From a virus: 24,375 nt of DNA. Both the position numbers and the translations under genes were made by a program. Of the stretch, positions 1,351 to 7,291 are shown piece after piece. The DNA lies in the IMG/VR virus record IMGVR_UViG_3300030117_004420, positions 1-24,375 of that record; one strand, 5' to 3'. The notes under the pieces were generated by a model. It saw nothing but the letters and a program-made list of their open reading frames with translations, did not search any database and was not told the DNA's origin. How positions within the stretch are numbered: position 1 is the first letter of the stretch; every line of letters starts with the position of its first letter.

Positions 1351-1427
1351 TGGTCGGCGCAGCAGGATTTGAACTTGCGACCTCTTGCTCCCAAAGCAAG
1401 CGTTCTACCAAACTGAACTATGCGCCG
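1351..1427 (-). tRNA. tRNA-Pro (anticodon UGG) with encoded CCA
   Basis: A full cloverleaf reads on the minus strand: acceptor CGGCGCA/TGCGCCG (7 pairs), D-stem GTTC/GAAC, anticodon stem CTTGC/GCAAG with loop TTTGGGA (anticodon TGG), variable loop AGGTC, T-arm GCAAG-TTCAAAT-CCTGC, discriminator A, then an encoded CCA at 1351-1353. The T-stem has one A-C mismatch. The 5' end overlaps the stop codon of the 39-aa membrane peptide gene by 10 bases, and the CCA end lies 10 bases before the methyltransferase start codon. Confidence 0.93.
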
Positions 1428-2111: not shown

Positions 2112-2728
2112 TTTTTCCTTTTATAGAATCCGACTCTTTCGTAGTCTGGTTGTTCAATATAAGTAAAACCATTAGGAGCATTTACTTCTTCTCCTTTCCA
2201 AACAGGAATAATCTCATCATATTCGCCCATGTCTTCATTTGCACGAAAATGAACTTCAATGAGGTTTCCATCAATAAACTCACAATTAATAACTGGATAT
2301 TCACCAAATATATTGTAAAGAACTTTTGGATATTTAATATACTCATTAACACGAATCCATCTTTTATATTTCCAAAGAGGATCATTGTCATTACGAAACC
2401 CTTCAGTTGTTAAATCTTGTGTAATTGTTCTTGTTTTTAGGTCAGTGACATAATCAACACTCAGATGCCGACCTTCAAAAATCTCACACCAAAAAGTCCC
2501 AGGCGGCAAATAATCTGTATCAACATTCTTTACAATGTAATCTATGTATGCACCCTTGCTCATTCCAACTGCATTGACACAAGGACGAATTATGTAATTT
2601 TTTGATTCAGGAGTCCAACCACCAGCTGGACCACATTGATATCCAAGTTTTTTTGCAAGAATAAGTTTATCAAAAATCCAAAGGTCTTCTGTATGTGCTG
2701 TGTCCCACACTTCATCATCATCTATCAT
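2108..2728 (-). CDS. Conserved phage-type hypothetical protein, 206 aa
   Basis: I cannot assign a function. The N-terminal third carries a pattern I associate with marine T4-type phage proteins: WIFDKLILAKKLGY (17-30), a CGPAGG turn (32-37), then YIIRPCVNAVGM (45-56). The rest is rich in aromatic and charged residues, with no signal peptide or membrane span. The RPCVN..GM stretch recalls nucleotide-binding or ATP-grasp-like folds, but the resemblance is weak and I would not call it. The gene overlaps the end of the lipase gene by 11 bases and the start of the Sm-like gene by 4, so it belongs to the same transcript. The Shine-Dalgarno is weak (GGAA about 13 bases upstream), consistent with coupling to the lipase stop. 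Confidence 0.7.
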   Translation of the reverse strand: MIDDDEVWDTAHTEDLWIFDKLILAKKLGYQCGPAGGWTPESKNYIIRPCVNAVGMSKGAYIDYIVKNVDTDYLPPGTFWCEIFEGRHLSVDYVTDLKTRTITQDLTTEGFRNDNDPLWKYKRWIRVNEYIKYPKVLYNIFGEYPVINCEFIDGNLIEVHFRANEDMGEYDEIIPVWKGEEVNAPNGFTYIEQPDYERVGFYKRKK

Positions 2729-3452
2729 TTTGATGACGTTCCAAAATCTTGATGTATTCTTTTATAGAATGATCTCTTGCATCAATTTTTGTTACATCGC
2801 CAATCGGATGATCTTCATCCCAATCTAAAGTTTCAGCGTTTATCCTCATACCCCAATGCACATAAGGAAAAGGTGGTAAAAAAGGCACAGGGTCATTTTC
2901 TAAATAAACTCTGAAATGTCCATTCATCCACAACTGTTCTGTCATTACGGAAGGAGAACCATAAGTGTAAATCTGAACTTCGTATGCATCATCCTCTAAC
3001 CACAAACCAATAATTTGTGCAACCGCTCCACCAAGTGAATGGCCTGTGAGAATAACTGTTTCTTCAAGTGCATGATTTTCAAGTAGGTCATCTCTTATTT
3101 TCTCAGCCGCATCTCTAAAACCTCTATGAAGATTTGCACCAAGTTTATTATCTTTGAATGGTCTAGCATCAAGGTCCGTTAGAACGTTTCGTCCATTGTT
3201 CGTTCCACGAATGATGACAATTGTAACACCCCTATCTTGAATGACATCGTAAGAAAACTCATTATCGTCAATCTCTTCTCCATCATCGTAAACCCTCTCA
3301 CAATATCCGGCCATTTCTAACAGAACTTCTATTCCTACTGGTAGATTTTCTTTTGTTCCGTTTGCACCACCCATACTTAAAAATTGATTTGTTGAAACAC
3401 ACGAATTAAGTAGTAGAGTTACTATTCCTATTATTATGAATTTCAACTTCAT
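2718..3452 (-). CDS. Class-3 lipase-family lipoprotein, 244 aa
   Basis: Alpha/beta-hydrolase of the lipase class 3 family, predicted to hydrolyse acyl esters such as phospholipids. The N-terminus has a lysine-containing start, a hydrophobic run and LLNSC with Cys18, a likely lipoprotein signal, so the enzyme is probably exported and lipid-anchored. Family motifs follow in order: IRGTNNGRNVLTDLD (81-95), the nucleophile elbow TGHSLGG with Ser139, YGSPSV (164-169), END with Asp187, and DH with His228, giving a complete candidate triad. The frame opens further upstream (3512), but the ATG at 3452 begins the signal peptide and has GGAG 8 bases before it. It overlaps the holin-like gene by 47 bases. 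That neighbour suggests a role in envelope breakdown at lysis; this is inference. The Asn at lipobox position -2 is unusual. Confidence 0.85.
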   Translation of the reverse strand: MKLKFIIIGIVTLLLNSCVSTNQFLSMGGANGTKENLPVGIEVLLEMAGYCERVYDDGEEIDDNEFSYDVIQDRGVTIVIIRGTNNGRNVLTDLDARPFKDNKLGANLHRGFRDAAEKIRDDLLENHALEETVILTGHSLGGAVAQIIGLWLEDDAYEVQIYTYGSPSVMTEQLWMNGHFRVYLENDPVPFLPPFPYVHWGMRINAETLDWDEDHPIGDVTKIDARDHSIKEYIKILERHQNDR

Positions 3453-3702
3453 CTTTCTTTCTCCACGCAGTTGCACCAAGAATCGCTCCAAATGAAAGAT
3501 GAAGCATAGCACCTGCTTGTAATGTCAATGGTTCCCACCTGCTCGTCTTACAATCTTGACCAGCTGCCAAAACTTCTGCACAAGCATCAAACATCAACAA
3601 ATTCCACCAAAGAGGCCCTACAAAAAAGTCGCACAAGCATATGAACAAATACACAAGTGCGGCCCAATCTCTCCAATAACGATTTATTAACTTATTTATC
3701 AC
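3406..3702 (-). CDS. Holin-like membrane protein (3TM/GTA-type), 98 aa
   Basis: Small membrane protein predicted to sit in the inner membrane and open it for lysis. The sequence shows WRDWAALVYLFICLCDF with a hydrophobic span (about 12-36), a short loop with two Cys, then PLTLQAGAMLHLSFGAILG and a second span (about 60-80), ending in a basic and polar tail. The RDWAALVYL and PLTLQ.G..LHL.FGAILG.TAW signatures match a holin-like family common in phages of marine alphaproteobacteria and in gene-transfer-agent-like clusters; this is from memory. The start is GTG at 3702, overlapping the upstream stop as GTGA; no other start precedes the first span. The 3' end overlaps the lipase gene, making a compact candidate lysis pair. 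No endolysin is seen nearby. Confidence 0.7.
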   Translation of the reverse strand: MINKLINRYWRDWAALVYLFICLCDFFVGPLWWNLLMFDACAEVLAAGQDCKTSRWEPLTLQAGAMLHLSFGAILGATAWRKKDEVEIHNNRNSNSTT

Positions 3703-4681: not shown

Positions 4682-5650
4682 TCAATCAAATTTCATAAGG
4701 ATATATTCAAATTCCTCAAAATTCAAAAACGTTCTAAGTTCCGAAAACCTTGTCTTGATCTTTGACTCAAAATCTGACATCGATCCGTCAGGTTTTTTCT
4801 TTAGACGATTAGCTTGAGTAGCATTACTTGCATATAAAGGAATTAAAAGTTTTCTCTTTTCTGCTCTGTTACACTCCATAATTGCTCTACCAAGAGCTTC
4901 TCCACTCCACGAGGCCGTAGTTGTGGGTGCAATAATTACAAAACCATCATAATGATTCATTTTCACCAGTTGATCATGAAATGCCTGTAATTCGTCCTGA
5001 CTGTACTTAACAATTGGAGCTCTTCGACCACCAGATGTGTGATTTGCAACCCAGTTTGTGTAAACACGATCATCTATCTGAGGATAAGCACTCAAAAAAC
5101 CTTTTCGTTCTTCATCAGATGGTTTTCCTTCTTTGCCTTCAGCAATCCTCTTGTCCATCAATCGATAAAGTTCAAGTTTTATAGCTTCATCCAAAAGAGG
5201 TTGTACCTCGTAATCAGCCCGATTAAGTAGATTGGCTAAACGATAAATAAGTAATTCATTTGATCGGAGATCATATTTGAAATTAACAACATTCGCTATC
5301 AGTTTTGAATTTCCAAGGTACTTGTTAATGACCATTCCGTGAGTACGATCAATTAAACGATAACTATTAGAATTAATTTCTTCACCATTGACAACAGCAG
5401 CATCTGGAAAATAAACAACAGTTGCTGGAAGACTCACATTTATACCAGCTTTTGACTTTCGTACTTGTCTCTTTACAAAATCGGGACTGTAAGTTTCAGG
5501 TCGGGATTGAATAATTGCATCCATAATAGGAGCATATTCATTAGGAGTTACTTCATAGACGAAATTATCAATTTTCATCATTTCAGTGCTCGACCATTTA
5601 TCTGATCGAATTGCTTCTGCAATTTCTTCAGGTTTCATAGATGGAATCAT
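4682..5650 (-). CDS. Hypothetical protein with possible ParB-like domain, 322 aa
   Basis: Function uncertain. Residues about 85-125 (YRLIDRTHGMVINKYLG, then LIANVVNF) resemble the core of ParB/sulfiredoxin-fold domains, where a Y-LIDG-H-R-A-G pattern appears; here the usual glycine is Arg and the usual second Arg is Gly. A helical segment containing LANLLN and YPQIDDRVYTNWVAN (about 190-205) could be a helix-turn-helix. The C-terminus is basic then acidic. No export signal is present. The ATG at 5650 has AGGAAAA upstream and its own promoter at 5704-5732 inside the end of the methyltransferase gene. ParB-like domains are often found beside DNA-modification genes, which fits the nuclease and methyltransferase immediately upstream, but linkage is only positional. 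It may also be an unrelated family. Confidence 0.5.
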   Translation of the reverse strand: MIPSMKPEEIAEAIRSDKWSSTEMMKIDNFVYEVTPNEYAPIMDAIIQSRPETYSPDFVKRQVRKSKAGINVSLPATVVYFPDAAVVNGEEINSNSYRLIDRTHGMVINKYLGNSKLIANVVNFKYDLRSNELLIYRLANLLNRADYEVQPLLDEAIKLELYRLMDKRIAEGKEGKPSDEERKGFLSAYPQIDDRVYTNWVANHTSGGRRAPIVKYSQDELQAFHDQLVKMNHYDGFVIIAPTTTASWSGEALGRAIMECNRAEKRKLLIPLYASNATQANRLKKKPDGSMSDFESKIKTRFSELRTFLNFEEFEYILMKFD

Positions 5651-5703
5651 TTTTCCTCATTATATGAATATTAATTAAATATATCTTATACTGATATAAT
5701 ATA

Positions 5704-5732
5704 AGTATACTATAATAGAGTTGAAAAGTCAA
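5704..5732 (-). promoter_or_regulatory. Sigma70-type promoter for the ParB-like gene
   Basis: Minus strand TTGACT (5732-5727), 17 bases, then TATACT (5709-5704), each box one base off consensus. It overlaps the last codons of the methyltransferase gene and lies about 55 bases before the ParB-like ATG. The long very AT-rich leader contains further -10-like sequences. Confidence 0.7.
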
Positions 5733-6456
5733 GTCTATTATAACCCTTCTGAAAATACTCATCAGAAGGTTCGCAACTCAAACAGATTCTCTTCGTGTTT
5801 TTCGCTGCTAAAGCAGTGGTAGCACTTCCACCATAAGGATCTACTACCACATCTCCTTCATTTGAATGTTTCTTAATTAACTCTTCAAACAAAGGTAGAG
5901 ACTTTTGTGTAGGATGAAATCTATCTTTACCAGAATAGATAGGATACTCGTACACACCTTTATCGTATTTACTGTTGAATGTCGCCTTTGAACCTTTCAC
6001 ACAACTAATAGCAATTTCTCTCGCATTATTAAGATAGGTATATTTTTGATTTACTGGAACAGGATTGGTTTTCAACCATTCAATAAATCTGAGTTTGGAA
6101 AATTTGACTTCTTCCAATAAATTTGACAGAGTTTCTATTTTCCATAGATCGAAAAAAATTATACAAGAACCACCTGGCTTCAATATTCGTTTGAATTCTG
6201 ATATAGCATATTTCAAATCATCAATTGTATAATTTTTATCCCACTCACCAAAGTCAGTATTGAATGCAAGATTGTTTTTACGTCCGTCTGGATGTATAAC
6301 GTGTTTACCACCAGCTTTCAAATGTTTTTTATATTCATCCATGCCAGTGTTTTTGGAGATGATGTAGGGTGGATCGGTCAGAACCAAATCTACACTATTT
6401 TTTTCGATACTGGATAGAAGTTCCTTATCGGTTTTTTTAGTGTATGATGACTTCAA
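5710..6456 (-). CDS. DNA amino-methyltransferase (N6-adenine or N4-cytosine), 248 aa
   Basis: Beta-class arrangement: catalytic DPPY at 28-31, a LKPGGSCIIFFDLW strand near 93-106, FHPTQKSLPL before the SAM site, and VVVDPYGGSATTALAAK (203-219) in the SAM-binding position. The usual FxGxG reads YGGSA, a slight departure. At 248 residues it has little room for a separate recognition domain. The start is TTG at 6456, with GGGAG 7 bases upstream; the first ATG is well past the catalytic motif, so TTG is the only workable start. It overlaps the nuclease candidate by 20 bases, the classic arrangement of a type II restriction-modification pair, and would protect phage DNA from that enzyme. It is distinct from the larger methyltransferase at 42-1340. 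Confidence 0.88.
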   Translation of the reverse strand: MKSSYTKKTDKELLSSIEKNSVDLVLTDPPYIISKNTGMDEYKKHLKAGGKHVIHPDGRKNNLAFNTDFGEWDKNYTIDDLKYAISEFKRILKPGGSCIIFFDLWKIETLSNLLEEVKFSKLRFIEWLKTNPVPVNQKYTYLNNAREIAISCVKGSKATFNSKYDKGVYEYPIYSGKDRFHPTQKSLPLFEELIKKHSNEGDVVVDPYGGSATTALAAKNTKRICLSCEPSDEYFQKGYNRLDFSTLL

Positions 6457-6973
6457 ACTCTTCTCCCTTCAAATCCTTAGTTGAAACAGAACCACCGATT
6501 CTTGGATCACTTGCGTATGGATTGTCAAAACTGTTTTTCCATTTAGGCCAAAGTAGTTTCCAAACTGTTTCGGCAGGAACTTTGAATGTCTTTACGAAAG
6601 TTCCATTATCGTAATTTATGATGGTCCAGTAGTGAAAAGGATCTCTCATAATTTTTTGTCTACAATATTTTTCCTGTTCTTCAAGATTGTCTTTACGACT
6701 AGTACCATTGTAAGAAAAAGAATGTGTCTTTTCGATTCCTTTTTTAGTAGTCCCTTTGTAGACAGTCGCTTTAAATTCAGCGGTTATCCCTTCATCATTT
6801 ACTCCATCTGAACCACCACCTACTTTTGTTAGATGAAATCCAAGCAAACTGGCTTGAAGATATTCAAAGGCACGATTATAATTAAAAGGATTACCAAGAC
6901 CCCTTCCATTGAATTCTTTCAAGAGATTCAATAAGTTTTCTGTCAATTCTTGGTCAGTCATATTTTCACTCAT
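6437..6973 (-). CDS. Putative PD-(D/E)XK endonuclease (restriction-enzyme candidate), 178 aa
   Basis: The segment GGGSDGVNDEGITAEFKAT (52-70) has the spacing of a PD-(D/E)XK active site: Asp56, then Glu66-Phe-Lys68, with Glu38 in the preceding helix FEYLQASLLG as a possible extra metal ligand. The size suits a simple type II restriction endonuclease. The ATG at 6973, joined to the upstream stop as TGATG and preceded by AAGGGGAT, is preferred over the TTG at 6991. The 3' end overlaps the methyltransferase gene, and this partnership is the strongest argument for restriction activity. The family is not one I can name, and the fold call is by motif only. It might instead be a phage nuclease attacking host DNA. 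Confidence 0.6.
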   Translation of the reverse strand: MSENMTDQELTENLLNLLKEFNGRGLGNPFNYNRAFEYLQASLLGFHLTKVGGGSDGVNDEGITAEFKATVYKGTTKKGIEKTHSFSYNGTSRKDNLEEQEKYCRQKIMRDPFHYWTIINYDNGTFVKTFKVPAETVWKLLWPKWKNSFDNPYASDPRIGGSVSTKDLKGEEFEVIIH

Positions 6974-7221
6974 CAATATCCCCTTTTCCAAAGAGTTGTC
7001 ATTTTCTTACCACTCAACCAAATGGTCATTGATTCATACACATCAAATGATGTTCCCATTATCGATTCCATAATATCAAAAACAGGAAGTGTCTTACGAT
7101 CATTAGGTTCCCAGAAGGAATCGGTGTTTCTCGCTTCGATCAACCTTCGAGCGATTTTGTGGGCTGCATCAACTGAAGAAACTGTTTTCACAATCTTTCT
7201 ACCAGAGCGAAATTCAATCAT
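6973..7221 (-). CDS. Small hypothetical protein, 82 aa
   Basis: Unrecognised mixed alpha/beta protein. It opens MIEFRSGRKIVKTVSSVD, continues with a basic helix (AHKIARRLIEAR), and ends with Trp and Lys-rich WLSGKKMTTLWKRGY. No membrane span or clear helix-turn-helix is visible. A longer frame starts with TTG at 7248, but the ATG at 7221 has GGAG 8 bases before it and lies at a normal distance from promoter P2, so it was chosen. The stop overlaps the nuclease-candidate start (TGATG), so it heads the nuclease-methyltransferase operon. A role as controller or accessory protein is possible but unsupported by motif. Confidence 0.65.
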   Translation of the reverse strand: MIEFRSGRKIVKTVSSVDAAHKIARRLIEARNTDSFWEPNDRKTLPVFDIMESIMGTSFDVYESMTIWLSGKKMTTLWKRGY

Positions 7222-7237: not shown

Positions 7238-7268
7238 GGGTTTCTCAATCACTCACACTTATATAATA
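7238..7268 (-). repeat. Repeat of the early-promoter start region (copy of 4621-4651)
   Basis: These 31 bases match 4621-4651 with one difference. They cover the -10 box and the first transcribed bases of P2 and P1, reading GTGAGTGATTGAGAAACCC downstream of the -10 on the minus strand. The upstream half of P1 is instead matched by P3 at about 7395-7430. The copies suggest spread of a promoter cassette within the genome. Confidence 0.8.
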
Positions 7269-7291
7269 ACAAACTGAAGTCACAATGTCAA
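7263..7291 (-). promoter_or_regulatory. Sigma70-type early promoter P2
   Basis: Minus strand TTGACA (7291-7286), 17 bases, TATTAT (7268-7263), with an A7 tract just upstream. Predicted start near 7256, about 35 bases before the ATG at 7221. It would drive the small hypothetical, nuclease candidate and methyltransferase. Confidence 0.85.

Follow-up and report, generated by a model that had tools for sequence, protein, structure and literature searches.

Restriction-modification systems are known in viruses, ParB-like genes beside methyltransferases are probably not new in phages, and the methyltransferases of lytic phages are mostly viewed as solitary enzymes with which bacterial restriction is evaded. 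Among described restriction enzymes, NhoI and Eco15I belong to the BisI family, which requires methylated DNA and has PvuII as its closest canonical relative; BisI enzymes carry a QVK or QIK (Q-x-K) motif, are modification-dependent and come without a partner methyltransferase (PMC11347163). The passages of PMC7019647 that deal with chloroviruses describe virus-encoded pairs (e.g. CviJI) in which nuclease and methyltransferase genes are always adjacent, and for which a role in breaking down host DNA at an early stage of infection has been proposed. The ParB/Srx fold occurs in restriction or conflict systems in the form of GmrS and Osa, with possible nucleotidase (NTPase) and sometimes DNase activity (PMC4619093).

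Here, a 24.4-kb virus record (24,375 nt), referred to below as the window and meaning the whole stretch of DNA analysed, was examined. Its gene content suggests that this marine phage is T4-like. Four consecutive open reading frames on the minus strand, encoding proteins of 82, 178 (R), 248 (M) and 322 amino acids (ParB-like), include a nuclease and a methyltransferase in separate, adjacent genes, as in Type II systems. The cassette is probably a phage-borne Type II restriction-modification system comprising a PvuII-like R, M and a ParB-like third component, for which we infer cleavage, specificity, timing and target. The relevant features are:

4682..5650, minus strand: predicted ParB/Srx-fold companion, 322 aa (phrog_5778; fold model)
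5704..5732, minus strand: promoter-like site ahead of the ParB-like gene, TTGACT-17-TATACT (consensus match 10/12)
5710..6456, minus strand: M, a 248-aa beta-class N6-adenine (or N4-cytosine) DNA methyltransferase (PF01555; TTG start)
6437..6973, minus strand: R, a 178-aa predicted PvuII-like PD-(D/E)XK restriction endonuclease (E37, D56, E66, K68; phrog_35715 family)
6973..7221, minus strand: 82-aa gene heading the operon (open reading frame call; conserved before R in L001-L003 and L012)
7263..7291, minus strand: promoter-like TTGACA-17-TATTAT upstream of the 82-aa, R and M genes (consensus match 11/12)

The 82-aa open reading frame and R have 1 bp in common, and the 20-base overlap between a PD-(D/E)XK candidate and the methyltransferase that was described in the initial annotation proved to be exact (6437-6456). 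M begins with a rare TTG codon preceded by a GGAGAA-type ribosome-binding site. Since the identical TTG and 20-bp overlap are kept in the nearest relative, L001, whose R and M are 63% and 73% identical to those of the window, the M start and the coupling of the two genes are real and not an artefact of the ORF finder. Two promoters are plausible from their sequences, one ahead of the 82-aa gene and one ahead of the ParB-like gene; the latter gene had been credited with a promoter of its own, and a TTGACT-17-TATACT site is indeed present, although the regional total of promoter-like sites is near the shuffled-sequence expectation, with no excess. The 82-aa gene had also been placed at the head of the operon, which agrees with its position at 6973-7221, whereas it belongs less clearly to the restriction-modification system itself: at locus L202 (3001-3736) the gene behind an 84% identical copy encodes a zinc-binding HNH-like nuclease in place of R. 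The 82-aa protein gave no convincing match in family libraries, and its candidacy as a C-protein was rejected for want of an HTH or family match.

The AlphaFold2 model of R (pLDDT 94, pTM 0.88) was compared with solved structures using Foldseek, which returned 21 matches at E <= 0.001, all of them to NhoI, Eco15I or PvuII (E 5e-6 to 9e-4, prob 1.00, TM-scores about 0.5); the value for PvuII structure 1ni0 was E 1e-5, with prob 1.00 and TM about 0.5. Within the model E37 is part of a helix and D56 precedes a strand that contains E66 and K68, as in PD-(D/E)XK cores, and all four residues are invariant across 34 aligned relatives, as are D56, E66 and K68 in a smaller set of eight. R therefore has the fold type of the PvuII family together with its helix E, D and E-x-K residues, with D56, E66 and K68 in the places of D58, E68 and K70, the catalytic residues of PvuII. 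Fold prediction had been named in the initial annotation as the test that could overturn a PD-(D/E)XK core; both the core and the positions given for D56 and Glu66-x-Lys68 came through it.

Sequence comparison places R further from PvuII. As a single sequence R returned only noise from the PDB, so that a family profile was required, and the profile of eight relatives matched PvuII entries only, weakly (E 0.02-0.3, best 0.022); over the sequence comparisons as a whole, the resemblance of R to PvuII stays weak, at E 0.02-0.13. The relative at L070 matched PF09225 (Endonuc-PvuII) with E 0.0063 and 16.9 bits, under the cut-off of 25, and R of the window gave no match to PF09225 at its gathering cut-off; because its score lies below this cut-off, R is regarded as a distant relative of PvuII and not as a member of the family. 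Curated HMM libraries gave no named family for R, with only the unnamed phrog_35715 from PHROGs, and the PADLOC catalogue of defence systems had no matches for R or the ParB-like protein, M alone of the cassette being matched (as MTase_II). The structural model nevertheless supports R as a PvuII-like PD-(D/E)XK endonuclease with predicted cleavage activity.

A pattern-plus-tblastn scan of viral contigs located R relatives in 360 stretches, and one bacterial bin contig was found in the genome collection. At 90% identity, the R-centred set comprised 38 clusters, three of which (L108, L116 and L120) had been added via the ParB search. A methyltransferase gene lies within 3 kb of R in 32 of the 38, and is the immediate next gene after R in 23 of the 37 with enough downstream sequence, compared with 7 of 87 control genes, a rate above zero since phages carry many methyltransferases. 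When M was taken as the starting point instead, R was again a neighbour of M relatives, at over a dozen loci, one of which (L129) repeats the R-M-ParB order of the window. With all searches pooled, and hence with loci found through partner genes taken in, 50/55 R clusters have a methyltransferase. At L070, a 492-aa GHKL-ATPase-like protein (1222-2700; DNSEAADA...GVGMK motifs, by eye) is encoded between R and M.

Six R records come from cultured phages (P-SSM2, P-SSM5, P-TIM68 and duplicates), and all have an SNPPF methyltransferase about 82% identical to the L009 copy; among Prochlorococcus records of named phage genomes, the SNPPF protein occurs only in these six. P-SSM2 was considered as an R phage without a methyltransferase, which was ruled out by its SNPPF methyltransferase 6.6 kb from R. 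The premise of the initial annotation that T4-type phages usually lack matched nucleases thus needs revision, T4-like cyanophages such as P-SSM2 and P-TIM68 carrying pairs more often than that, while its reading of the locus as a restriction-modification operon gains support at the level of sequence and fold, and from a pairing that recurs in many phages.

Assignment of M to the beta class, also proposed initially, was borne out by a PF01555 (N6_N4_Mtase) match at E 1.7e-30 and by a DPPY motif that precedes the AdoMet motif; the closest solved structures are DpnA-type adenine methyltransferases (5hek/5hfj, phmmer E 2e-32). The commonest partner of R is of another type, the small SNPPF methyltransferase (phrog_799, E 8e-35). 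Methyltransferases have been swapped repeatedly beneath the one nuclease family, since the beta-class label changes eight times on the R tree, with at least six changes forced by well-supported branches. A second beta-class methyltransferase is encoded in the window at 42-1340 on the minus strand (phrog_67 E 4e-72, PF01555 E 1e-34), 3.3 kb from the ParB-like gene, and in L001-L003 and L012 its relatives stand immediately ahead of the 82/89-aa gene. It adjoins a tRNA-Pro (TGG) gene at 1351-1427 (minus), and the long open reading frame that runs through the tRNA is spurious upstream of 1340. Further along the same strand are genes for a small SET-domain protein (1537-1836; PF00856 E 9.5e-13), which is unusual for a phage, and a class 3 lipase/esterase (2718-3455; PF01764 E 5e-20); an esterase/lipase is likewise annotated in P-SSM2.

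The ParB-like label given initially to the 322-aa protein found no support in sequence libraries, which returned phrog_5778 only (E 1e-44), and a ParB profile retrieved nothing from PDB sequences; the label is sustained instead by predicted fold and recurrent linkage. The AlphaFold2 model (pLDDT 87, pTM 0.47) has a ParB-like N domain, an HTH-like middle and an alpha/beta C domain, and its best Foldseek matches are Noc (E 4.8e-4), sulfiredoxin and ParB, with Srx/ParB probabilities mostly of 0.84-1.00 and TM-scores on the targets of 0.35-0.55, the match spanning the N-terminal part only. A ParB/Srx fold in the N-terminal part is supported by this model. The presumed nucleotide-site motif reads DRTHG in the window as against NGNHT in most relatives.

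Members of phrog_5778 adjoin R and a methyltransferase at eight loci (L031, L039, L108, L110, L116, L120, L129 and L130). In Synechococcus phages ACG-2014b and S-RIM12 a member comes after genes for a D12 methyltransferase and for a nuclease of the PDDEXK_11 type (Pfam 2.7e-11), and at L100, L101, L102 and L097 the family is found with a PDDEXK_11 or phrog_15364 protein plus Dam or D12 methyltransferases; phrog_15364 has a sub-threshold MvaI/BcnI-like Pfam match (1.4e-4). Since the family recurs with other nuclease/methyltransferase pairs, the ParB-like gene would appear to be no bystander, which corrects the initial annotation. The slot between R and M is filled elsewhere by several unrelated ParB/Srx-type families, which by sequence motif are of the DGQH type and of the L055, L141, L142, L148 and L163 types. 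A 466-aa DUF262 plus HNH-like protein (GmrSD-like, by eye) between R and M at L143 (1571-2971) is a further ParB/Srx-fold candidate. Beside a ParB-like gene and a D12 methyltransferase, phrog_2400 proteins at L105 (3653-4186) and L113 (3201-3746) have a PDGG...FEGKK motif reminiscent, by eye, of EcoRI; PDB profile searches supported neither an EcoRI-like identity for phrog_2400 nor a MutH/Sau3AI-like one, also suggested by eye, for phrog_15364. At L117 (1372-1944), a possible PD-(D/E)XK protein (phrog_21547; weak HSDR_N match, 0.06) is encoded near a ParB-like gene and methyltransferases.

Other explanations of the locus were weighed against these data. R could feasibly be a modification-dependent nuclease of the BisI kind (Type IIM/IV) directed at host- or rival-methylated DNA, with M an unrelated orphan, and the slight lead of NhoI and Eco15I over PvuII in the structural ranking would fit with this. 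However, whereas BisI enzymes have QVK/QIK and no methyltransferase (PMC11347163), R has an E-x-K that is invariant in 34 sequences and coupled methyltransferases, and we consider such a mode improbable; because R has both E-x-K and a partner methyltransferase, a PvuII-like mode in which methylation blocks cleavage is more likely. A chance meeting of neighbours in a gene-dense accessory region, M being an anti-restriction orphan and R a general host-DNA, recombination or homing nuclease, seems more improbable still: methyltransferases are common in such phages, as seen in the control and in at least four annotated DNA methyltransferases in P-SSM2, but the linkage is far above the control from two independent starting points (R and M), cultured phages hold both genes even when these are 6.6 kb apart, and the 20-bp overlap is conserved.

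The standing of the third gene is less settled. R and M may be a true pair beside a ParB-like gene that is a mere transcriptional regulator or partition-like relic unlinked to restriction, a reading to which we give real but minority weight. The gene has its own promoter-like site, and at some phrog_5778 loci neither a nuclease nor a methyltransferase is recognised in the neighbourhood. A ParB/Srx-like gene lies within 3 kb in about 22/55 R clusters, and because none is recognised in the other 60% or so, the component is not obligatory. Against this, recognised nuclease genes are near 14/22 phrog_5778 clusters (11 when calls made by motif only, phrog_2400 among them, are left aside) and methyltransferases near 16/22, and the slot between R and M is taken by ParB/Srx-type families of several unrelated kinds. 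A broader interpretation, which we advance tentatively, is of a widespread, phage-specific three-component restriction-modification arrangement in which interchangeable PD-(D/E)XK nucleases and methyltransferases would be assembled around a working ParB/Srx protein (e.g. a clamp, driven by nucleotide, through which the nuclease is loaded or licensed on foreign DNA), for use by lytic phages against host or rival genomes.

In the preferred reading, a Type II restriction-modification system, R would cut a short unmethylated DNA site, and M, expressed from the gene that overlaps that of R, would methylate the same site on phage DNA and thereby protect progeny genomes. Virion DNA would arrive already methylated from the previous host, with M not required ahead of R; the R-before-M gene order would be tolerable for this reason, unlike in a bacterial system entering a naive cell. 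Host chromosomes or unmethylated competing phages could then be cut soon after infection, and the system is likely to serve either to destroy host DNA, for which chloroviruses offer a precedent, or to exclude rival phages. For the ParB/Srx protein the likeliest role is to regulate or target the pair as a DNA-binding or clamp-like factor dependent on nucleotide; it could load, license or regulate the nuclease, given the nucleotidase and sometimes DNase activity of GmrS and Osa in conflict systems (PMC4619093).

The nuclease/methyltransferase pair is widespread in phage contigs and extends to cultured model cyanophages, where the nuclease is labelled hypothetical. Phages may thus routinely turn restriction-modification on host or rival DNA, an idea that is testable in P-SSM2, P-SSM5 and P-TIM68, and the recurrent ParB-like partner suggests a mechanism unlike that of ordinary Type II systems. 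In the open-access literature searched, no report was found of the R family, nor of the combination seen here, in which a PvuII-like family is distributed among marine phages, its methyltransferases are interchangeable and a recurrent ParB/Srx partner serves other nucleases as well. What the fold model adds is support for the 322-aa neighbour as a ParB/Srx-fold protein of a family recurrent beside R and a methyltransferase.

Compared with known systems, the cassette resembles the Type IIP PvuII system in fold, in D-x9-E-x-K spacing, in the adjacent methyltransferase and in the small gene ahead of R. It differs in being phage-borne, in a methyltransferase of another type and in having no HTH C-protein among the genes found, and R is only about 13-17% identical to PvuII over the structural match, with an insertion at about residues 70-85 in the branch of the window. 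With the BisI enzymes NhoI and Eco15I the fold is common, whereas the active site of R is E-x-K and R is accompanied by a methyltransferase. Chlorovirus pairs are likewise virus-encoded and adjacent, yet they belong to algal viruses and consist of different enzymes, with no ParB-like third gene in the passages that describe them. GmrSD belongs to Type IV and has an HNH partner, whereas the ParB-like protein of the window is separate and accompanies a pair of the Type II kind. Finally, the ACG-2014b and S-RIM12 loci have a nuclease of the PDDEXK_11 type and a methyltransferase of the D12 class, unlike the window, but agree with it in that the ParB-like gene stands next to genes for a PD-(D/E)XK nuclease and a methyltransferase and that a helicase gene lies downstream.
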